Translations under genes and position numbers: made by a program
The notes under the pieces: model-generated
The model's database searches: none
Seen by the model: the letters and a program-made list of their open reading frames with translations, nothing else
Told to the model about the DNA's origin: nothing
Source of the DNA: Armatimonadota bacterium
GTDB taxonomy: Bacteria; Armatimonadota; UBA5829
Assembly: GCA_039679645.1 (NCBI GenBank)
Contig: JBDKUO010000003.1
Location: forward strand, 1-39,101
DNA length: 39,101 nucleotides
Direction: 5' to 3'
Shown: piece after piece, positions 3,922-10,061 of the stretch
How positions within the stretch are numbered: the stretch's first letter is position 1
Layout of the letters: the number at the start of each line of letters is the position of its first letter

Positions 3922-5862
3922 ATGTCAAAGAACACTTACTACATAACAACGCCGATATATTATGTCAATGACGTTCCGCACATCGGTAACGCCTACACGA
4001 CAATTATCGCCGATATCGTATCAAGGTACCGCAAGCTCAAAGGAAGCGGCGCATATCTGCTGACAGGCACGGACGAACACGCCATCAAAGTGGCTCAAGC
4101 CGCTGCTGACAAGAACCTGCCGACAAAGGAGTTTGTCGACGGCCTGGCCGATAAGTTCAAGCAGGTGTGGGCGAGTCTCGATGTCAAATACGATGATTTT
4201 ATCCGCACCACCGAGCCGCGTCACGTTGATGTGGTCAAGGCAATATTTAAGCGACTTCTCGACCAGGGAGATATCTATAAGGGTGAGTATCAGGGTTGGT
4301 ACTGCGTGCCATGCGAGACATTTCTGGCGGAATCCGACCTTGTTGACGGCAAGTGCCCCGAGTGCGGTCGAGCCGTAGAATGGGTGCATGAAGAGAACTA
4401 CTATTTCAAGCTCTCCGCATACGGCGACAGGCTCCTGGACTATATCGAGTCTCACCCGGGTTTCTTGCAGCCGGAGTTTCGCAAGAATGAAGTCGTCAGC
4501 TTCATCAAACAGGGGCTGCGCGATATCTCAATTACCCGTGACAATAAAGGCTGGGGCATTACCGTTCCGGGCGATGAGAGTAAAGTTATCTACGTCTGGT
4601 TCGATGCGCTCATCAACTATATCAGTGCGATCGGTTACTTGAGCGATGACGAAAAGTTCAACTCTCTCTGGCCGGCCGATCTGCAGCTTATGGGCAAAGA
4701 TATCTTTGTGCGGTTCCACTGCACATTCTGGCCCGCTATGCTGATGGCTTTGGGGCTGGAACAGCCTAAAACTTTGTTTGGTCATGGTTTCTGGACGATC
4801 AACGGTGAAAAGATATCCAAGTCCAAGGGCAATGCAATATCTCCAGCCAAACTCGCTGACGATCTGGCAGCCGAGTCAGGTGCGGCGCGCGGAGTATGCC
4901 TGGATGCAGTCAGATATTTCGTGGCCAGGGAAGTGACCTTCGGCGTAGACGGCGACTTCTCGATAGCGTCGTTCAAAAATCGATTCAACTCCGACCTTGC
5001 AAATGACCTTGGAAATCTCTTAAACCGCACACTGAGCATGCTGGGCAAGTACTTTGACGGCTCGATACCCGACCCGAAGGGCTTTTCGGGCGGGCTCAAG
5101 GATGTCATAGCGCAGGCCGCCGAGACGGCGGGGCAGACGTGCGATAGGCTGGAGTTTACCCGCGCTCTGGAAGCTATCTGGCAGATGATAGGCGCGGGCA
5201 ACAAATATATAAACGACATGAAACCCTGGGAGCTTGAGAAGCAGGGCAAGACGGATGAACTCGCGGGTGTGCTCTATTCAGCGCTCGAAGTCGCGCGCGC
5301 GGCGGCGATTATGGTCTCACCGTTTATGCCCTCGACTGCTAAGGAGATAGCTCGCCAGATAGGGATAGCGGATACGTTCGGATCGCTGAAGTGGGCGGAT
5401 ATTACCGCACCGAACTCATTGGCACCAGGCACCCGCACTCAGGGCCCGGACCCTATATTCCCGAGAATCGATACAAAAAAGAAGAAAGAGGCTGTTAAGG
5501 TGGAAGAAAAACCACAGGAAGCTCCAAAGACCGAGGAAACGATATCATACGATTACTTCAGCAAGCTGCAGATACGGATCGCGGAAGTAAAATCCGCCGA
5601 GAAGGTCGAGGGAGCCGATAAGCTCCTCAGGCTGCAGATAAGCCTGGGAGATGAGGAGCGCCAGATAGTGGCGGGTGTCGCTCAATACTATGAGCCGTCT
5701 TCTCTGGTGGGCAGGAAGATCGTGCTGCTGGCGAACCTTGAGCCTGCCAAGATAAGGGGCGTCGTCTCAAACGGCATGCTCCTGGCAGCCTCGGATGCCG
5801 AAGGGCGTGCGGTATTGCTTCAGCCCGATTCGGATGTCCCGGCAGGATCGAAAGTAAGGTAA
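3922..5862 (+). CDS. metG: methionyl-tRNA synthetase
   Basis: Charges tRNA-Met with methionine in the cytoplasm. The class I signature appears as PIYYVNDVPHIGNAY (HIGH box as HIGN) near the N-terminus, and KMSKS appears as KISKSKGN. A zinc-knuckle-type connective region has CVPC and CPEC. The anticodon-binding helical domain is followed by a Lys/Glu-rich linker and a C-terminal Trbp111-like tRNA-binding domain (last ~110 residues, from YDYFSKLQIRIAEVK), the usual dimerising module. Length (about 646 residues) fits the family. The ATG at 3922 begins MSKNTYYITTPIYYVND, as in homologues; the longer start would lie inside the -10 box. It stands alone, convergent with the GGDEF gene. Confidence 0.95.
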   Translation: MSKNTYYITTPIYYVNDVPHIGNAYTTIIADIVSRYRKLKGSGAYLLTGTDEHAIKVAQAAADKNLPTKEFVDGLADKFKQVWASLDVKYDDFIRTTEPRHVDVVKAIFKRLLDQGDIYKGEYQGWYCVPCETFLAESDLVDGKCPECGRAVEWVHEENYYFKLSAYGDRLLDYIESHPGFLQPEFRKNEVVSFIKQGLRDISITRDNKGWGITVPGDESKVIYVWFDALINYISAIGYLSDDEKFNSLWPADLQLMGKDIFVRFHCTFWPAMLMALGLEQPKTLFGHGFWTINGEKISKSKGNAISPAKLADDLAAESGAARGVCLDAVRYFVAREVTFGVDGDFSIASFKNRFNSDLANDLGNLLNRTLSMLGKYFDGSIPDPKGFSGGLKDVIAQAAETAGQTCDRLEFTRALEAIWQMIGAGNKYINDMKPWELEKQGKTDELAGVLYSALEVARAAAIMVSPFMPSTAKEIARQIGIADTFGSLKWADITAPNSLAPGTRTQGPDPIFPRIDTKKKKEAVKVEEKPQEAPKTEETISYDYFSKLQIRIAEVKSAEKVEGADKLLRLQISLGDEERQIVAGVAQYYEPSSLVGRKIVLLANLEPAKIRGVVSNGMLLAASDAEGRAVLLQPDSDVPAGSKVR

Positions 5863-5912
5863 TAGCTGAGAGTGGAGAGCTAAGAGCCGAGAATTGCCAC
5901 TGCTCTATTCTT

Positions 5913-5936
5913 GGTCAGGATTTCCGAATCCTGACC
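5913..5936 (+). repeat. class B hairpin
   Basis: GGTCAGGAT and ATCCTGACC pair perfectly over 9 bp around loop TTCCGA. It has the same loop class as the 3652-3707 units, with a different stem that stays paired. It lies just after metG. Confidence 0.75.
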
Positions 5937-5964
5937 CTTTCGCGTTCCGTTGTTTCGAGTATAA

Positions 5965-6024
5965 AGCTGAAAGTGGAAAGCAACATACTCCGGACTCTCC
6001 ACTTTCCACTCTCCACTTTCAGCT
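5965..6024. terminator. large inverted repeat between convergent genes
   Basis: AGCTGAAAGTGGA (5965-5977) and TCCACTTTCAGCT (6012-6024) give a perfect 13-bp stem with a 34-nt loop. It lies between convergent metG and the GGDEF gene and is followed on the plus strand by ATTTTATTAG. A bidirectional terminator is plausible. AGTGGAAAG-like units also occur at about 5868-5885 and 37342-37370, so it may be a dispersed repeat. Confidence 0.45.
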
Positions 6025-6030
6025 ATTTTA

Positions 6031-7314
6031 TTAGCTTGCTTTTTGCAGCTCTCGGAAGCTGTGAACAAGGTTGGGTCCAAGGAACCGTCCCTGGTTCAGC
6101 GCGCGGTGCGCGGCGTTGATGATGTCTTCGGGAGTTGATCCATGCTCAGGAAAAGTGGATATACCCACGCTCACGGAGAGCGGCCTTTCTTTAAGCCCGG
6201 CATTTGCTACACTGTCATGCAGCCTCTGCACGATCTCCTCGGCTTCCTGTGCGGGGGCTTCCGGAAAAACTGCCACTAACCTGGTGGCGGAATAGTTGGC
6301 GACCAGGTCATAGTCGCGCACTTCGGACTTAAGCTTCTCACCCATCGCCACCATCGCCTCACGCGCAGACTCATCTTTCTTCTTTGGATTGTTTTTGAAC
6401 TCGTCCAGATCAAAGACCGCAACGGAAAGGGGCCTTTCGGCTCGTTCGGAACGGCTCAGCTCGTTTTGCAGAAACATCTCAAGATAGCGCTTGTTGGCCA
6501 GCCCTGTCACCGGGTCCACAAAAGCCGAGCCGGATTTTCTTTGCGGCTGCAAGTCGGGTTTTTGCTCTTCCTGAACTGTTTTCCGCGGCTGCAACTGCTG
6601 CTTTGGTCGTGCGAACAATGCTCCACATGCAAGCGCCGCCGGAACAGACAGAGCCAGCAAAACATATGACGGAGCAATGGCATACAGCACGGCCAGTGCA
6701 TAACCGGAAAAGATGCACAGTGACCAGCCTGCCGCAACAGAGAAGGCGTTCGGAAAATGTTCCGTTACCGGCTCGGAAGACTTGGACTTAGGGGTAATTG
6801 CGGCCAGGAACGCATTCGCGCCGATATAGACTATGGCTGCACAGAGCAGGGGCGCAAATGAATCCGCCTGTTGAGGCCGAATTTCATTGCCCCCTGACAC
6901 TACGTAGATACAGGATGAAAGCGAACACACCGCAGCAGGCTTTAGTATTTCATAAAGGACCAGGTGAAGAGGTCTCTTAGCAGGGTTTTCGACCGCAAGC
7001 CGAACGGCTGCCCCCAAAGCGGCGGGCAGCGAGGCTCCAAACGGCCCAAGGGCGAGCGCCCCCGCAAAGAGCACGCAGTGAGTCAGCGAAAAACGGATCG
7101 ATTCATCTTTCCACCGACCGTGTATCTCCACCGCGAACGGGTTCGCTGCCGCTGCCAATGCCGCAATCGATAGTATACGCCACTCCAGCCCCGAGCTAAA
7201 GAGCGCACTTATTATGCACCCCAGCCCAGCGGCGCAAACCAGGCACATTACCAGTCCTGCCGATACCCTCGTATTCGGGCTTGCATCGATATTTTTTGTA
7301 GAGTCTTTATCCAT
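6031..7314 (-). CDS. membrane protein with degenerate GGDEF domain
   Basis: The 427-residue protein has about six hydrophobic segments in residues 17-235, a charged linker, and a C-terminal GGDEF-family domain (about 265-425). DPVTGLANKRYL and FDLDEFK are conserved. The catalytic GGDEF signature, however, is replaced by SATRL (342-346), so cyclase activity is very unlikely. The allosteric I-site RxxD (R333, D336) remains exactly five residues upstream of the signature position. Such proteins usually act as c-di-GMP receptors, so that is the likely role. It is the third or fourth gene of a minus-strand set headed by a c-di-GMP riboswitch. The ATG has only weak ribosome-site support. Confidence 0.85.
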   Translation of the reverse strand: MDKDSTKNIDASPNTRVSAGLVMCLVCAAGLGCIISALFSSGLEWRILSIAALAAAANPFAVEIHGRWKDESIRFSLTHCVLFAGALALGPFGASLPAALGAAVRLAVENPAKRPLHLVLYEILKPAAVCSLSSCIYVVSGGNEIRPQQADSFAPLLCAAIVYIGANAFLAAITPKSKSSEPVTEHFPNAFSVAAGWSLCIFSGYALAVLYAIAPSYVLLALSVPAALACGALFARPKQQLQPRKTVQEEQKPDLQPQRKSGSAFVDPVTGLANKRYLEMFLQNELSRSERAERPLSVAVFDLDEFKNNPKKKDESAREAMVAMGEKLKSEVRDYDLVANYSATRLVAVFPEAPAQEAEEIVQRLHDSVANAGLKERPLSVSVGISTFPEHGSTPEDIINAAHRALNQGRFLGPNLVHSFRELQKAS

Positions 7315-7368: not shown

Positions 7369-7551
7369 TTATAGCAACGCGTGGTACTTAATATATACCT
7401 TACATGCCCGGCAAATTGAGAGATCAGAATTTGGGCAGCACGGTTTTTCTTGAATTTCCCAGCAATTCAGGCCCTCTTTGTAACCGCGGCACGAAAGATA
7501 GAAACTTGCGGGACACCCGCGATACGCATAGTTGCTGCAAGTGCTTTTCAT
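7369..7551 (-). CDS. small Cys-rich protein
   Basis: This 60-residue protein has eight or more cysteines in a zinc-finger- or Fe-S-like arrangement: CSNYAYRGC, then LSCRGY, then GLNCWEI, then PCC, and finally SICRACKVYIKY. The C-terminal CxxCxVY ending resembles small conserved proteins I have seen with NCWE motifs, but I cannot name a family. ATG at 7551 is preceded by GAGAGGAAAGAAT, a good ribosome site; a GTG 15 nt upstream is inside that site. It lies 18 nt after the HD-GYP gene and before the degenerate GGDEF gene, so it is probably co-transcribed and may have a role in c-di-GMP signalling or redox sensing. The role is inference. Confidence 0.65.
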   Translation of the reverse strand: MKSTCSNYAYRGCPASFYLSCRGYKEGLNCWEIQEKPCCPNSDLSICRACKVYIKYHALL

Positions 7552-7569: not shown

Positions 7570-9429
7570 TCAGGCGGCCAGCCTACCTCGTTTTCGCGCG
7601 CGCTTGTCCCTATACATAGCCGCGTCCGCCGCATCAAGCAGCGATTCGAGGTCTCCCGCATCTTTGGGATATGTTGCGATCCCTACACTCGCGCCAAGCG
7701 GCGCAAGTGTCAGATTGGCATACTGCTCGGCGTATTTTCCGACAACCTGCTGAATTCGCTTTGCAATTATCTCAGCTTCGCTCGCCGGTGTGTCCGGCAG
7801 CACCAATACAAACTCATCACCGCCGTTGCGGAACACCTGGTCATAGTCCCTGAGCTGACTCAGGAAAATATCAGCAGCATCTTTCAGAACGCTGTCACCT
7901 TTTTGATGACCCAGAGAGTCATTGATTGCCTTGAAGTTCTCAAGGTCTATGCCGATCACGGATAAATGTCCGCTGCGCCTGGATGCCCTGCGAATCTCAC
8001 GTTCGAGATATGTACGCAGATACCTGCCGTTGTGCAGGCCCGTAAGAGGGTCTCTTACGGCGGAATCCCGCACCTGCTCGAAGGCGCTTGCGTTTTGAAT
8101 AGCCATAGCGGCAGTATTGGCCACAAAAGAAAGAGTGCGCAGATCGTCGTCTGAGAATGCATGAGGCGCGTCGTCATACAGGTTGATCGTCCCTAAAACA
8201 CGTCCGAAGCTCGATATCGGCGCGACAAGACAGGACTTGAAGCTCGATACCAGATGACCATTCATCCCCAAAGTCAGATCGTTAGGATCATAGTTGCCGA
8301 CATATGTGCCTGCATGCAGCGCAGCCTTTCCGGTCACTCCCTTGCCCAGCTTCACGCTTGCGCCCTTGAGCATCTCGTTCCATCGGCCCGCGGCTGCACG
8401 CGCAGTCATCATATGCGAATGCGACTCGTCCACAAGAAACACGACGCATGTGGCCGCATCACTGAGCCTTTTGGTCCTGTGAGCCAACAGAGCCAGCACT
8501 TCATCAAGCTCCAGCGTGCTGGAAAGAGTCTGAGCGATCTCAAAAATCGACATCATCTCATGGTTTGCCTGAGCTATCAGGTCGGCTGCGCCAAAGCTGT
8601 CTGCGCCCATTGCGCAAGCCGGCGCAGGCTTTTGCTGGCTGCCTATCTCCTTTACCTTGCCGGCAACCTCAAGAAACGCCGTCACGACTTCCGGGTCAAA
8701 CTGTGATCCGGAGAGCTTTGTTATATGATCGACAGCCTCTTCATGTGACCATCCTTCTTTATAACAGCGAGTCGAAACCAGAGAGTCGTAGACCTCCGCT
8801 ATGGAGATTATCCGGGAGCCGACCGGTATATCGTCAGCCGACAGATGGTCCGGGTAACCGGAGCCGTCGTAGTTTTCATGATGATGGCGGACCATATCGG
8901 CGACGTTCCACGGATAGTCGACCTGCTCCAGTATCCGGGCGCCGATGGTGGTGTGACTGCGCATCTTGCTGAACTCCTCGGTATCCAAGGGACCCGGCTT
9001 GAGCAAGATATATTCAGGCACACCAAGCTTACCTACGTCATGGACAAGCGATGCGATACGTATGCCGTTGAGTTCATCTTCACTCAGGTTCAAGGTGCGG
9101 CCGACCAACTCGCAGATCGCCTTTACTCTGGTGACATGATGCTGCTCATACGAGTCCTTGGCGGCTATCGCGCAGGCGAGCGCTTCAGCGGTATCATGAT
9201 AGACTTTTGCCAGGCGCTTATCGCTCTCCATGCTCTGGGCAATAGACTTTTGCGGCGCAGACTTCGACAAGGCGTGGGTGCACAGCATTACCGCAAGTGC
9301 CAGCCACAGGCCTACACCCAGCAAGCCGCGCCCATAGTCTCCACCGGAAGCAAGGATGCCTATACCTGCCGCGCAGACTGCCGATCCGATAACCATCAAG
9401 ACTCGCAAATTTATCGCTCTAGCTTTCAT
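7570..9429 (-). CDS. HD-GYP / GAF / GGDEF c-di-GMP turnover protein
   Basis: The 619-residue protein begins with two hydrophobic segments (about 8-55). An HD-GYP phosphodiesterase domain (about 75-255) follows with H130-D131 and HHHENYDGSGYP (182-193). Next come a GAF domain (about 290-450) and an intact GGDEF cyclase domain (455-615) with DPLTGL, FDLENFK-like IDLENFKAIN, and GGDEF at 536-540. The I-site RxxD (R527, D530) is preserved. It can in principle both make and degrade c-di-GMP, with GAF as the likely switch. HD-GYP plus GGDEF in one chain, in this order with a GAF between, is less common than EAL fusions. The ATG is preceded by GCGAGAG. It probably belongs to the riboswitch-led transcript. 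Confidence 0.93.
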   Translation of the reverse strand: MKARAINLRVLMVIGSAVCAAGIGILASGGDYGRGLLGVGLWLALAVMLCTHALSKSAPQKSIAQSMESDKRLAKVYHDTAEALACAIAAKDSYEQHHVTRVKAICELVGRTLNLSEDELNGIRIASLVHDVGKLGVPEYILLKPGPLDTEEFSKMRSHTTIGARILEQVDYPWNVADMVRHHHENYDGSGYPDHLSADDIPVGSRIISIAEVYDSLVSTRCYKEGWSHEEAVDHITKLSGSQFDPEVVTAFLEVAGKVKEIGSQQKPAPACAMGADSFGAADLIAQANHEMMSIFEIAQTLSSTLELDEVLALLAHRTKRLSDAATCVVFLVDESHSHMMTARAAAGRWNEMLKGASVKLGKGVTGKAALHAGTYVGNYDPNDLTLGMNGHLVSSFKSCLVAPISSFGRVLGTINLYDDAPHAFSDDDLRTLSFVANTAAMAIQNASAFEQVRDSAVRDPLTGLHNGRYLRTYLEREIRRASRRSGHLSVIGIDLENFKAINDSLGHQKGDSVLKDAADIFLSQLRDYDQVFRNGGDEFVLVLPDTPASEAEIIAKRIQQVVGKYAEQYANLTLAPLGASVGIATYPKDAGDLESLLDAADAAMYRDKRARKRGRLAA

Positions 9430-9473: not shown

Positions 9474-9686
9474 TCAGTGTCCTCTAAACGTAGAGGTGGT
9501 TGAGTCAATGTCGGGAGCTGTTACGCTCTCGCCGCTCACGTCGTAGACACTCTCGACAAGAAAAAGAACCTGCTCCGCGGTTGACGGCGCGGCGCAATCG
9601 TTCTTTTTACAGGCACCACGGTTTCCTGACCTCATGTCAAGAAGACCAAATCCCGACTCAGCTACCGGTTCATAAATGTTTAACAT
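9474..9686 (-). CDS. small hypothetical ORF behind the riboswitch
   Basis: A 70-residue reading frame starting at ATG, 17 nt after the terminator-like U-tract of the riboswitch and ending 44 nt before the HD-GYP gene. Codon choice resembles neighbouring genes. The peptide has a middle GACKKNDCAAP with two cysteines, a hydrophobic EQVLFLVESVYDV segment, and an acidic Ser/Thr-rich tail. I recognise no family. The ribosome site is weak (a GGGGGCTTGG stretch). It could be a genuine small protein, a leader peptide, or chance. Its position between riboswitch and enzyme makes it worth recording. Confidence 0.4.
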   Translation of the reverse strand: MLNIYEPVAESGFGLLDMRSGNRGACKKNDCAAPSTAEQVLFLVESVYDVSGESVTAPDIDSTTSTFRGH

Positions 9687-9703
9687 ACTACCAAGCCCCC
9701 AAG

Positions 9704-9733
9704 ACAACAAAAATGCCAGGCTGTCGCAGCCAA
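9704..9733 (-). terminator. riboswitch expression platform (terminator-like)
   Basis: On the minus strand GGCTG-CGA-CAGCC forms a hairpin followed by TGGCA and a TTTTTG tract. The sequence CAGCCTGGCA here is the exact complement of TGCCAGGCTG in the 3' part of the upstream aptamer (9798-9807), so the two pairings exclude each other. The long-range duplex abuts the U-tract directly. Polarity (ON or OFF with ligand) is therefore not decided by inspection. Confidence 0.65.
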
Positions 9734-9789
9734 CTTCACCCAATCGCCTGAAAACCTGCAGCCCATTCATTCAGACGATAGAGTGTGTT

Positions 9790-9887
9790 CGCTTCGGCAG
9801 CCTGGCAAGCATGTCTCGACGGATCGAGGTGTAGCCCCAATAGCTTTGCGTCCCATGGTTTCCCATGGTTTGCCCTTTCGTGCGTTC
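9790..9887 (-). ncRNA. c-di-GMP-I (GEMM-I) riboswitch
   Basis: Reading the minus strand, the aptamer shows CACGAAAGGGCAAACC, a CCATGG-GAAA-CCATGG hairpin with a GNRA tetraloop, then GGGACGCAAAGC, then TATTGGGGCTA. A CTCGA/TCGAG hairpin follows, and then GCTTGCCAGGCTGCCGAA. These are the conserved blocks of the GEMM-I class, including the tetraloop and its receptor-side GCAAAGC. The triple G before CAAACC suggests c-di-GMP rather than the cGAMP variant, but this needs checking. It lies upstream of the minus-strand c-di-GMP genes and antisense to the leader of the TonB receptor gene. Confidence 0.9.
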
Positions 9888-10061
9888 AGGCCTCGGCCTG
9901 AGCTTTCTTCATATAGTTTATGCCTCACTATGAGCGCTCCCCACCTGAAGAAATTACCTGTTTCGCCGATAATTGGAATATCAGTGGCTTGGAAGCGTTC
10001 AACTGGCCTGGCCGCACATATTTTCTGGCGCCTTACCGGGCGACTGAGGAGGATACTAATT

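Follow-up and report, generated by a model that had tools for sequence, protein, structure and literature searches.

A c-di-GMP-I riboswitch with a conserved strand swap, probably an ON switch, heads an operon for c-di-GMP turnover that includes two orphan small genes in an Armatimonadota bacterium

In an Armatimonadota bacterium, a four-gene operon devoted to the turnover of c-di-GMP is preceded by a leader RNA that is confirmed, on its sequence, as a genuine c-di-GMP-I (GEMM-I) riboswitch of a known kind with predicted ligand binding, and that probably works as a transcriptional ON switch. The locus lies in a stretch of 39,101 nucleotides, here called the window (contig JBDKUO010000003.1 of assembly GCA_039679645.1), which belongs to a genome of 3.41 Mb in 69 contigs with six GEMM-I riboswitches. 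It brings together at one place an RNA through which the messenger would, by prediction, control the amounts of an enzyme with domains for making and for breaking it and of its likely receptor, and this arrangement is maintained across an entire class within a phylum that has received little study. The locus also introduces two conserved small-protein families outside the family libraries, one of which was found only directly behind c-di-GMP riboswitches.

The aptamer occupies positions 9793–9884 of the minus strand. GEMM-I had been recognized on this strand in an earlier note made from the letters alone, which named Rfam RF01051 as the model to compare; the match is significant (68.1 bits against a gathering cut-off of 35, E 2e-11), covers the full length of the model (positions 1–87 of 87) and is the only one above gathering that an Rfam scan returned in the window. 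In the numbering that we take to correspond to G20 and A47 of Vc2, the binding pocket has bases of the c-di-GMP type, with G at position 20 and A at position 47. Among the orthologous riboswitches the base at position 20 varies, being G in most, A in several and C in G007 (L122, L124, L135, L146, L148, L112, L159; L139). The G002 ortholog (L112/L013) has an A there, and its enzyme gene is split by one in-frame TGA into an HD-GYP part and a GGDEF part. At another locus (L086, G048 C306:2408-2494), where GEMM-I stands before an HD-GYP/GGDEF gene, it is the A at the A47 position that is replaced by G.

The 3′ arm of this aptamer has two possible partners. As the earlier note had seen, the A strand TGCCAGGCTG (9807–9798, minus strand) is the exact 10-nt complement of the H strand CAGCCTGGCA (9723–9714), which forms the 3′ side of a terminator stem and runs directly into TTTTT at 9713–9709, UUUUU in the transcript. 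From A strand to H strand and U tract (9709–9807), the RNA folds into a rod-shaped intrinsic terminator hairpin. The A strand can thus find its partner either within the aptamer or in the H strand, and the two pairings are mutually exclusive: seven pairs of the Rfam aptamer structure use bases 9799–9805, all of which lie inside the terminator stem. A complement of at least 10 nt to the aptamer arm is expected by chance in about 0.2% of cases, as judged from 2180 dinucleotide shuffles of the downstream sequence. Across the phylum, 19 of the 109 Armatimonadota GEMM-I scored have, no more than ~200 nt further on, an exact complement of at least 10 nt to the last 24 nt of the aptamer, in most cases with a T-rich stretch behind it; these are largely orthologs of the window locus (most orthologs being included), together with loci of another small protein.

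Folding of the RNA agrees with such a swap. The 211-nt leader is more stable than its dinucleotide shuffles (z -5.2), and its best fold is the terminator form. Eighteen leaders ranging from genus to class were folded, each beginning at the aptamer arm and ending with the T-rich tail; all 18 form a long rod whose base consists of the arm paired to the downstream strand, and in G013 both swap strands have changed together (GGCCGGGCTG with CAGCCCGGC). In the majority of leaders, the inner, distal part of the rod is by itself more stable than most of its shuffles (z -3.7 in the window), the excess being absent in G026 and weak in G015 and G016; rod conservation was judged by single folds and shuffles, the MAFFT alignment of the distal rods not being structure-aware. 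Folding of the growing transcript places the change of partner very late: with an energy model that includes neither tertiary contacts nor ligand, the aptamer-bearing structure equals the best fold at all lengths up to 9725, while the terminator becomes better by 2.5 kcal/mol at 9720 and by 13 kcal/mol at 9715, just before the U tract begins at 9713. With its final ~10 nt transcribed, the hairpin is preferred by 13–15 kcal/mol. The U tracts of relatives are U-rich and imperfect, and in several they are weak (G002 TTACTCTG, G005 TTATTACG), so that termination there may be poor or assisted by Rho. The strand swap proposed from the window alone is supported by its relatives: throughout the Armatimonadota class, orthologous leaders keep the aptamer/terminator arrangement.

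Behind the leader come, in this order, small gene A (9474–9686), the gene of an HD-GYP/GAF/GGDEF enzyme (7570–9429), the Cys-rich small gene B (7372–7551) and a gene for a degenerate GGDEF protein (6031–7314), all on the minus strand, with 44, 18 and 57 nt between successive genes. The earlier note had correctly named the two large products, of 619 and 427 aa; what it missed is that the first gene of the operon is a 70-aa small gene, and it also overlooked the Cys-rich one. The translation of the enzyme, whose domains were assigned by Pfam, contains the motifs of both enzymatic domains (HD in HDVGK, HHENYDGSGYP, GGDEF) and an inhibitory site, RDYD. The 427-aa protein has a hydrophobic N-terminal half and a GGDEF domain (Pfam, 80 bits) in which, when aligned to an active GGDEF, SATRL replaces the signature motif while the I-site RDYD is kept. 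On these residues, it probably reads c-di-GMP through its I-site and would thus be a c-di-GMP receptor. About 160 nt of inverted-repeat element lie downstream of the operon (window 5860–6025, TAGCTGAAAGTGGAGAGTG ... CTCTCCACTCTCAGCTA; fold z -6.8), possibly a small mobile repeat.

The reading of these genes as a c-di-GMP turnover operon finds support in these gaps and in their conservation. Among named relatives of the enzyme gene, the closest (56% identity) comes from the Armatimonadetes MAG SKW42 and assigns the window to Armatimonadota; of 61 genomes, 28 have an ortholog or close homolog. The homologous gene has a GEMM-I just upstream in the genus (G001–G004), in the family (G006, G007, G010 and G013) and in several class or phylum members (G019, G020, G022, G026, G027, G048 and one of the two G037 copies), the riboswitch being retained there through genus, family and class; within the genus, the whole order of GEMM-I, gene A, enzyme and gene B is kept. 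The 791-aa enzyme of G026 was also compared with the degenerate GGDEF protein as a possible fusion, and the proposed relationship between their N-terminal parts was unsupported (E 0.55).

Searches of Pfam, NCBIfam and PDB sequences assign neither small protein to a family, no Pfam or NCBIfam score reaching its cut-off, and their predicted structures are of low confidence (mean pLDDT 59 for A and 50 for B). Small gene A, located between the terminator and the enzyme gene, is conserved in genus and family (dN/dS 0.19 against G004). A search of whole genomes, with a profile seeded from copies behind GEMM-I, found one copy in each of 11 of the 201 phylum genomes, and all 11 are directly behind a GEMM-I. 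In G015 and G017, a second GEMM-I and then a subtilase-like gene come after gene A, which thereby appears to be a target of riboswitch control by itself. Its product might be a dedicated and as yet undescribed component of c-di-GMP signalling, confined to c-di-GMP riboswitch control: induced by the messenger, it would act as adaptor or inhibitor on the HD-GYP/GGDEF enzyme or on a target that both share, although we offer this only as a tentative suggestion. If it were true, the riboswitch operon would form a homeostasis module complete in itself, with A and B as its small regulators. Small gene B, between the enzyme gene and the degenerate GGDEF gene, encodes 60 residues including 8 Cys (dN/dS 0.11 against G004). 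Its relatives are directly behind GEMM-I in G005, G020, G026 and G027, while in G007 and G015 they immediately follow the enzyme gene. Its Cys/Trp pattern, NCW...PCC...C..C.VY, weakly resembles the two-CW domain (NF045718), but the window protein scores 11.9 bits against a curated cut-off of 35, the best member (E 0.012) is likewise below cut-off, and this is a free-standing protein of 60 aa.

How would such a leader work? As the polymerase moves on from 9884, the aptamer is computed to fold first. Without ligand, the H strand (9723–9714) would capture the arm (9807–9798), thereby completing the rod hairpin ahead of UUUUU, and transcription would stop near 9708. With c-di-GMP bound, the arm would be held in the aptamer, the terminator could not close, and the polymerase would read through into the operon. 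High c-di-GMP would then raise the enzyme, small proteins A and B and the probable receptor. The ON direction, on which the earlier note took no position, is inferred because the logic of swap and timing matches that of the pilM riboswitch, which was reported to be ON (PMC9262584). Should the HD-GYP phosphodiesterase activity dominate, the feedback loop suggested in the earlier note might be negative, the messenger boosting its own breakdown along with its receptor; this part is less certain. The sign of the feedback could in fact go either way, as the enzyme also has an intact GGDEF, and its GAF domain may choose between the two activities.

Other explanations share some of this evidence. The most serious would give the downstream enzyme genes a promoter of their own and leave only small gene A to the riboswitch. 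A promoter lying below the leader, which the earlier note had regarded as fatal to its proposal, has one weak candidate, TTTAGA-16-TATAAT at 9488–9461, some 30 nt before the enzyme start, and the second GEMM-I between the small gene A homolog and the next gene in G015 and G017 fits separate control as well. Two such promoter-like matches were found, however, against 2.7 expected in shuffles, the sequence is kept neither in G004, the nearest relative, nor in G001 or G003, and in G007, G019 and G022 GEMM-I precedes the enzyme without any copy of small gene A. The candidate was rejected as an escape from the leader, and we hold independent transcription of the enzyme genes to be unlikely. Less probable still is translational control, in which the hairpin or the freed H strand alters ribosome access to the start of small gene A at 9686. 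The imperfect U tracts of several relatives would suit it, as would a Shine-Dalgarno-like GGGGG at 9700–9696, just 13 nt past the stem, but the stem covers neither this sequence nor the start codon, and in the window it runs straight into UUUUU.

The direction of the switch and its ligand can be questioned in the same way. In an OFF switch, the bound aptamer would free the H strand for a short local hairpin, GGCTG-CGA-CAGCC (9731–9719), that ends transcription; a pattern scan finds this hairpin terminator-like, and OFF is the known direction of the Cd1 GEMM-I (PMC9262584). Yet the local stem stops 5 nt short of the U tract; G006, G010 and G013 lack its 5′ half GGCTG although they keep the H strand; and the pairing that is universal joins the arm to the H strand, for which the aptamer must be broken. 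With its 5′ half not conserved, switching through the local hairpin was rejected, and the OFF direction seems to us about as improbable as translational control. Sensing of cGAMP is the remotest of the four. Enzymes of the Hypr GGDEF type, which make cGAMP, have Ser or Thr instead of Asp in GHxxGD, a rule known from work on Geobacter, while an A at Vc2 position 20 is the base that we assume to mark cGAMP-type (GEMM-Ib) aptamers. Some sister loci do carry this A, namely the C56 locus of the same genome and the G002 ortholog, but the window aptamer has G; a motif scan of the genome saw no Hypr-type GGDEF, Asp being present in all 7 distinct GGDEF sites caught. On both counts cGAMP was rejected as the ligand. 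The preferred reading thus stays that of a c-di-GMP-responsive ON switch acting through the terminator.

The locus also shares a short element with other riboswitch loci. At 9918–9963 of the minus strand, 34 nt before the aptamer, the sequence reads AAACAGGTAAT-N5-CAG-N20-GGCATAA, an exact pattern present at 3 places in the 3.4-Mb genome. Its two-block consensus, AAACnGGTAwT-N5-CAG-N20/21-GGCAyAA, also covers L234, L235, L236, L241, L214 and L224. With 0–3 mismatches, it accompanies all GEMM-I loci of the genome but the flgM one, and hence marks nearly all of them; it also lies before one exported protein and at a second copy of a gene for small protein C that has no recognizable aptamer; the few further matches at 2–3 mismatches look like chance. 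In L214 and L224, from two relatives, a gene follows the element at once, without an intervening riboswitch. The element probably serves a shared regulon as promoter or operator.

Small protein C (64 aa, IPEAKQYLGRN...VPMYGGCLVGDIEDIWLDKVT) is itself encoded behind GEMM-I, mostly with swaps of 13–15 nt (L122, G000 C56:25252-25746; L124, L135, L146, L158, L159). It is present in 22 of 28 class genomes and matches no Pfam or NCBIfam family. Upstream of its second copy (L226, G000 C53:65745-66262; L225), the element is present and GTCAGCCGGGCTGCCGAGA, the sequence of the 3′ arm, survives, though no Rfam match comes from the remainder; from what is left, this leader looks like a decayed GEMM-I.

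Over the phylum, GEMM-I was found in 44 of 61 genomes, and 110 examples from 40 genomes were compared together with flanking DNA on both sides. A GGDEF or HD-GYP gene lies within 3 kb of 19 of these 110, and flgM of 30. The earlier view that GEMM-I control of cyclase or phosphodiesterase genes is unusual does not hold up well, since those 19 precede such genes and a review already places GEMM upstream of diguanylate cyclase and phosphodiesterase genes (PMC3971182, citing Sudarsan 2008 and Smith 2010). Among the papers searched, none mentions both “c-di-GMP riboswitch” and “Armatimonadetes”, which is a weak test. Several other loci were observed on the way. A tandem GEMM-I pair (L136, G000 C49:51175-51475), seen also in G001, G003 and G004, has as its next clear gene a BadF/BcrA-type ATPase ~600 nt on. 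Strong GEMM-I of 81 bits in L077 and L094 (C46 of G000, C9 of G004) are followed by ~270 nt without an evident gene, possibly a riboswitch-controlled noncoding RNA; at the G004 locus, an FtsH-like protease comes next. GEMM-I, often in tandem, also precede subtilase-like genes in G015, G017, G032 and G037 (L078, L074, L105, L107, L118).

The sensor, the off-on logic and the regulatory theme are all of known kinds, and the fresh part is the orphan small proteins. With Vc2 of Vibrio cholerae (RF01051), the window riboswitch shares the full-length covariance match, the conserved blocks, the GAAA loop and the G20 and A47 bases; it differs in belonging to the Armatimonadota, in preceding a turnover operon to which two orphan small genes belong, and in that its ligand is predicted. 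The Cd1 switch of the Clostridioides difficile flagellar operon has an aptamer of the same class and the transcriptional control proposed here, but it is OFF and its terminator makes no use of the aptamer arm (PMC9262584), whereas that of the window does. Closest is pilM of Geobacter metallireducens, reported to be an ON riboswitch: strand A serves both its aptamer and its terminator, and only one of the two can form at a time (PMC9262584). The window terminator is likewise built from the aptamer's own 3′ arm and a downstream strand, a pairing kept in 18 leaders; seven aptamer pairs share bases with it, and a U tract comes directly after the stem. While pilM senses cGAMP and controls pili genes, the window leader has a pocket of the c-di-GMP type, and its terminator is a long rod.
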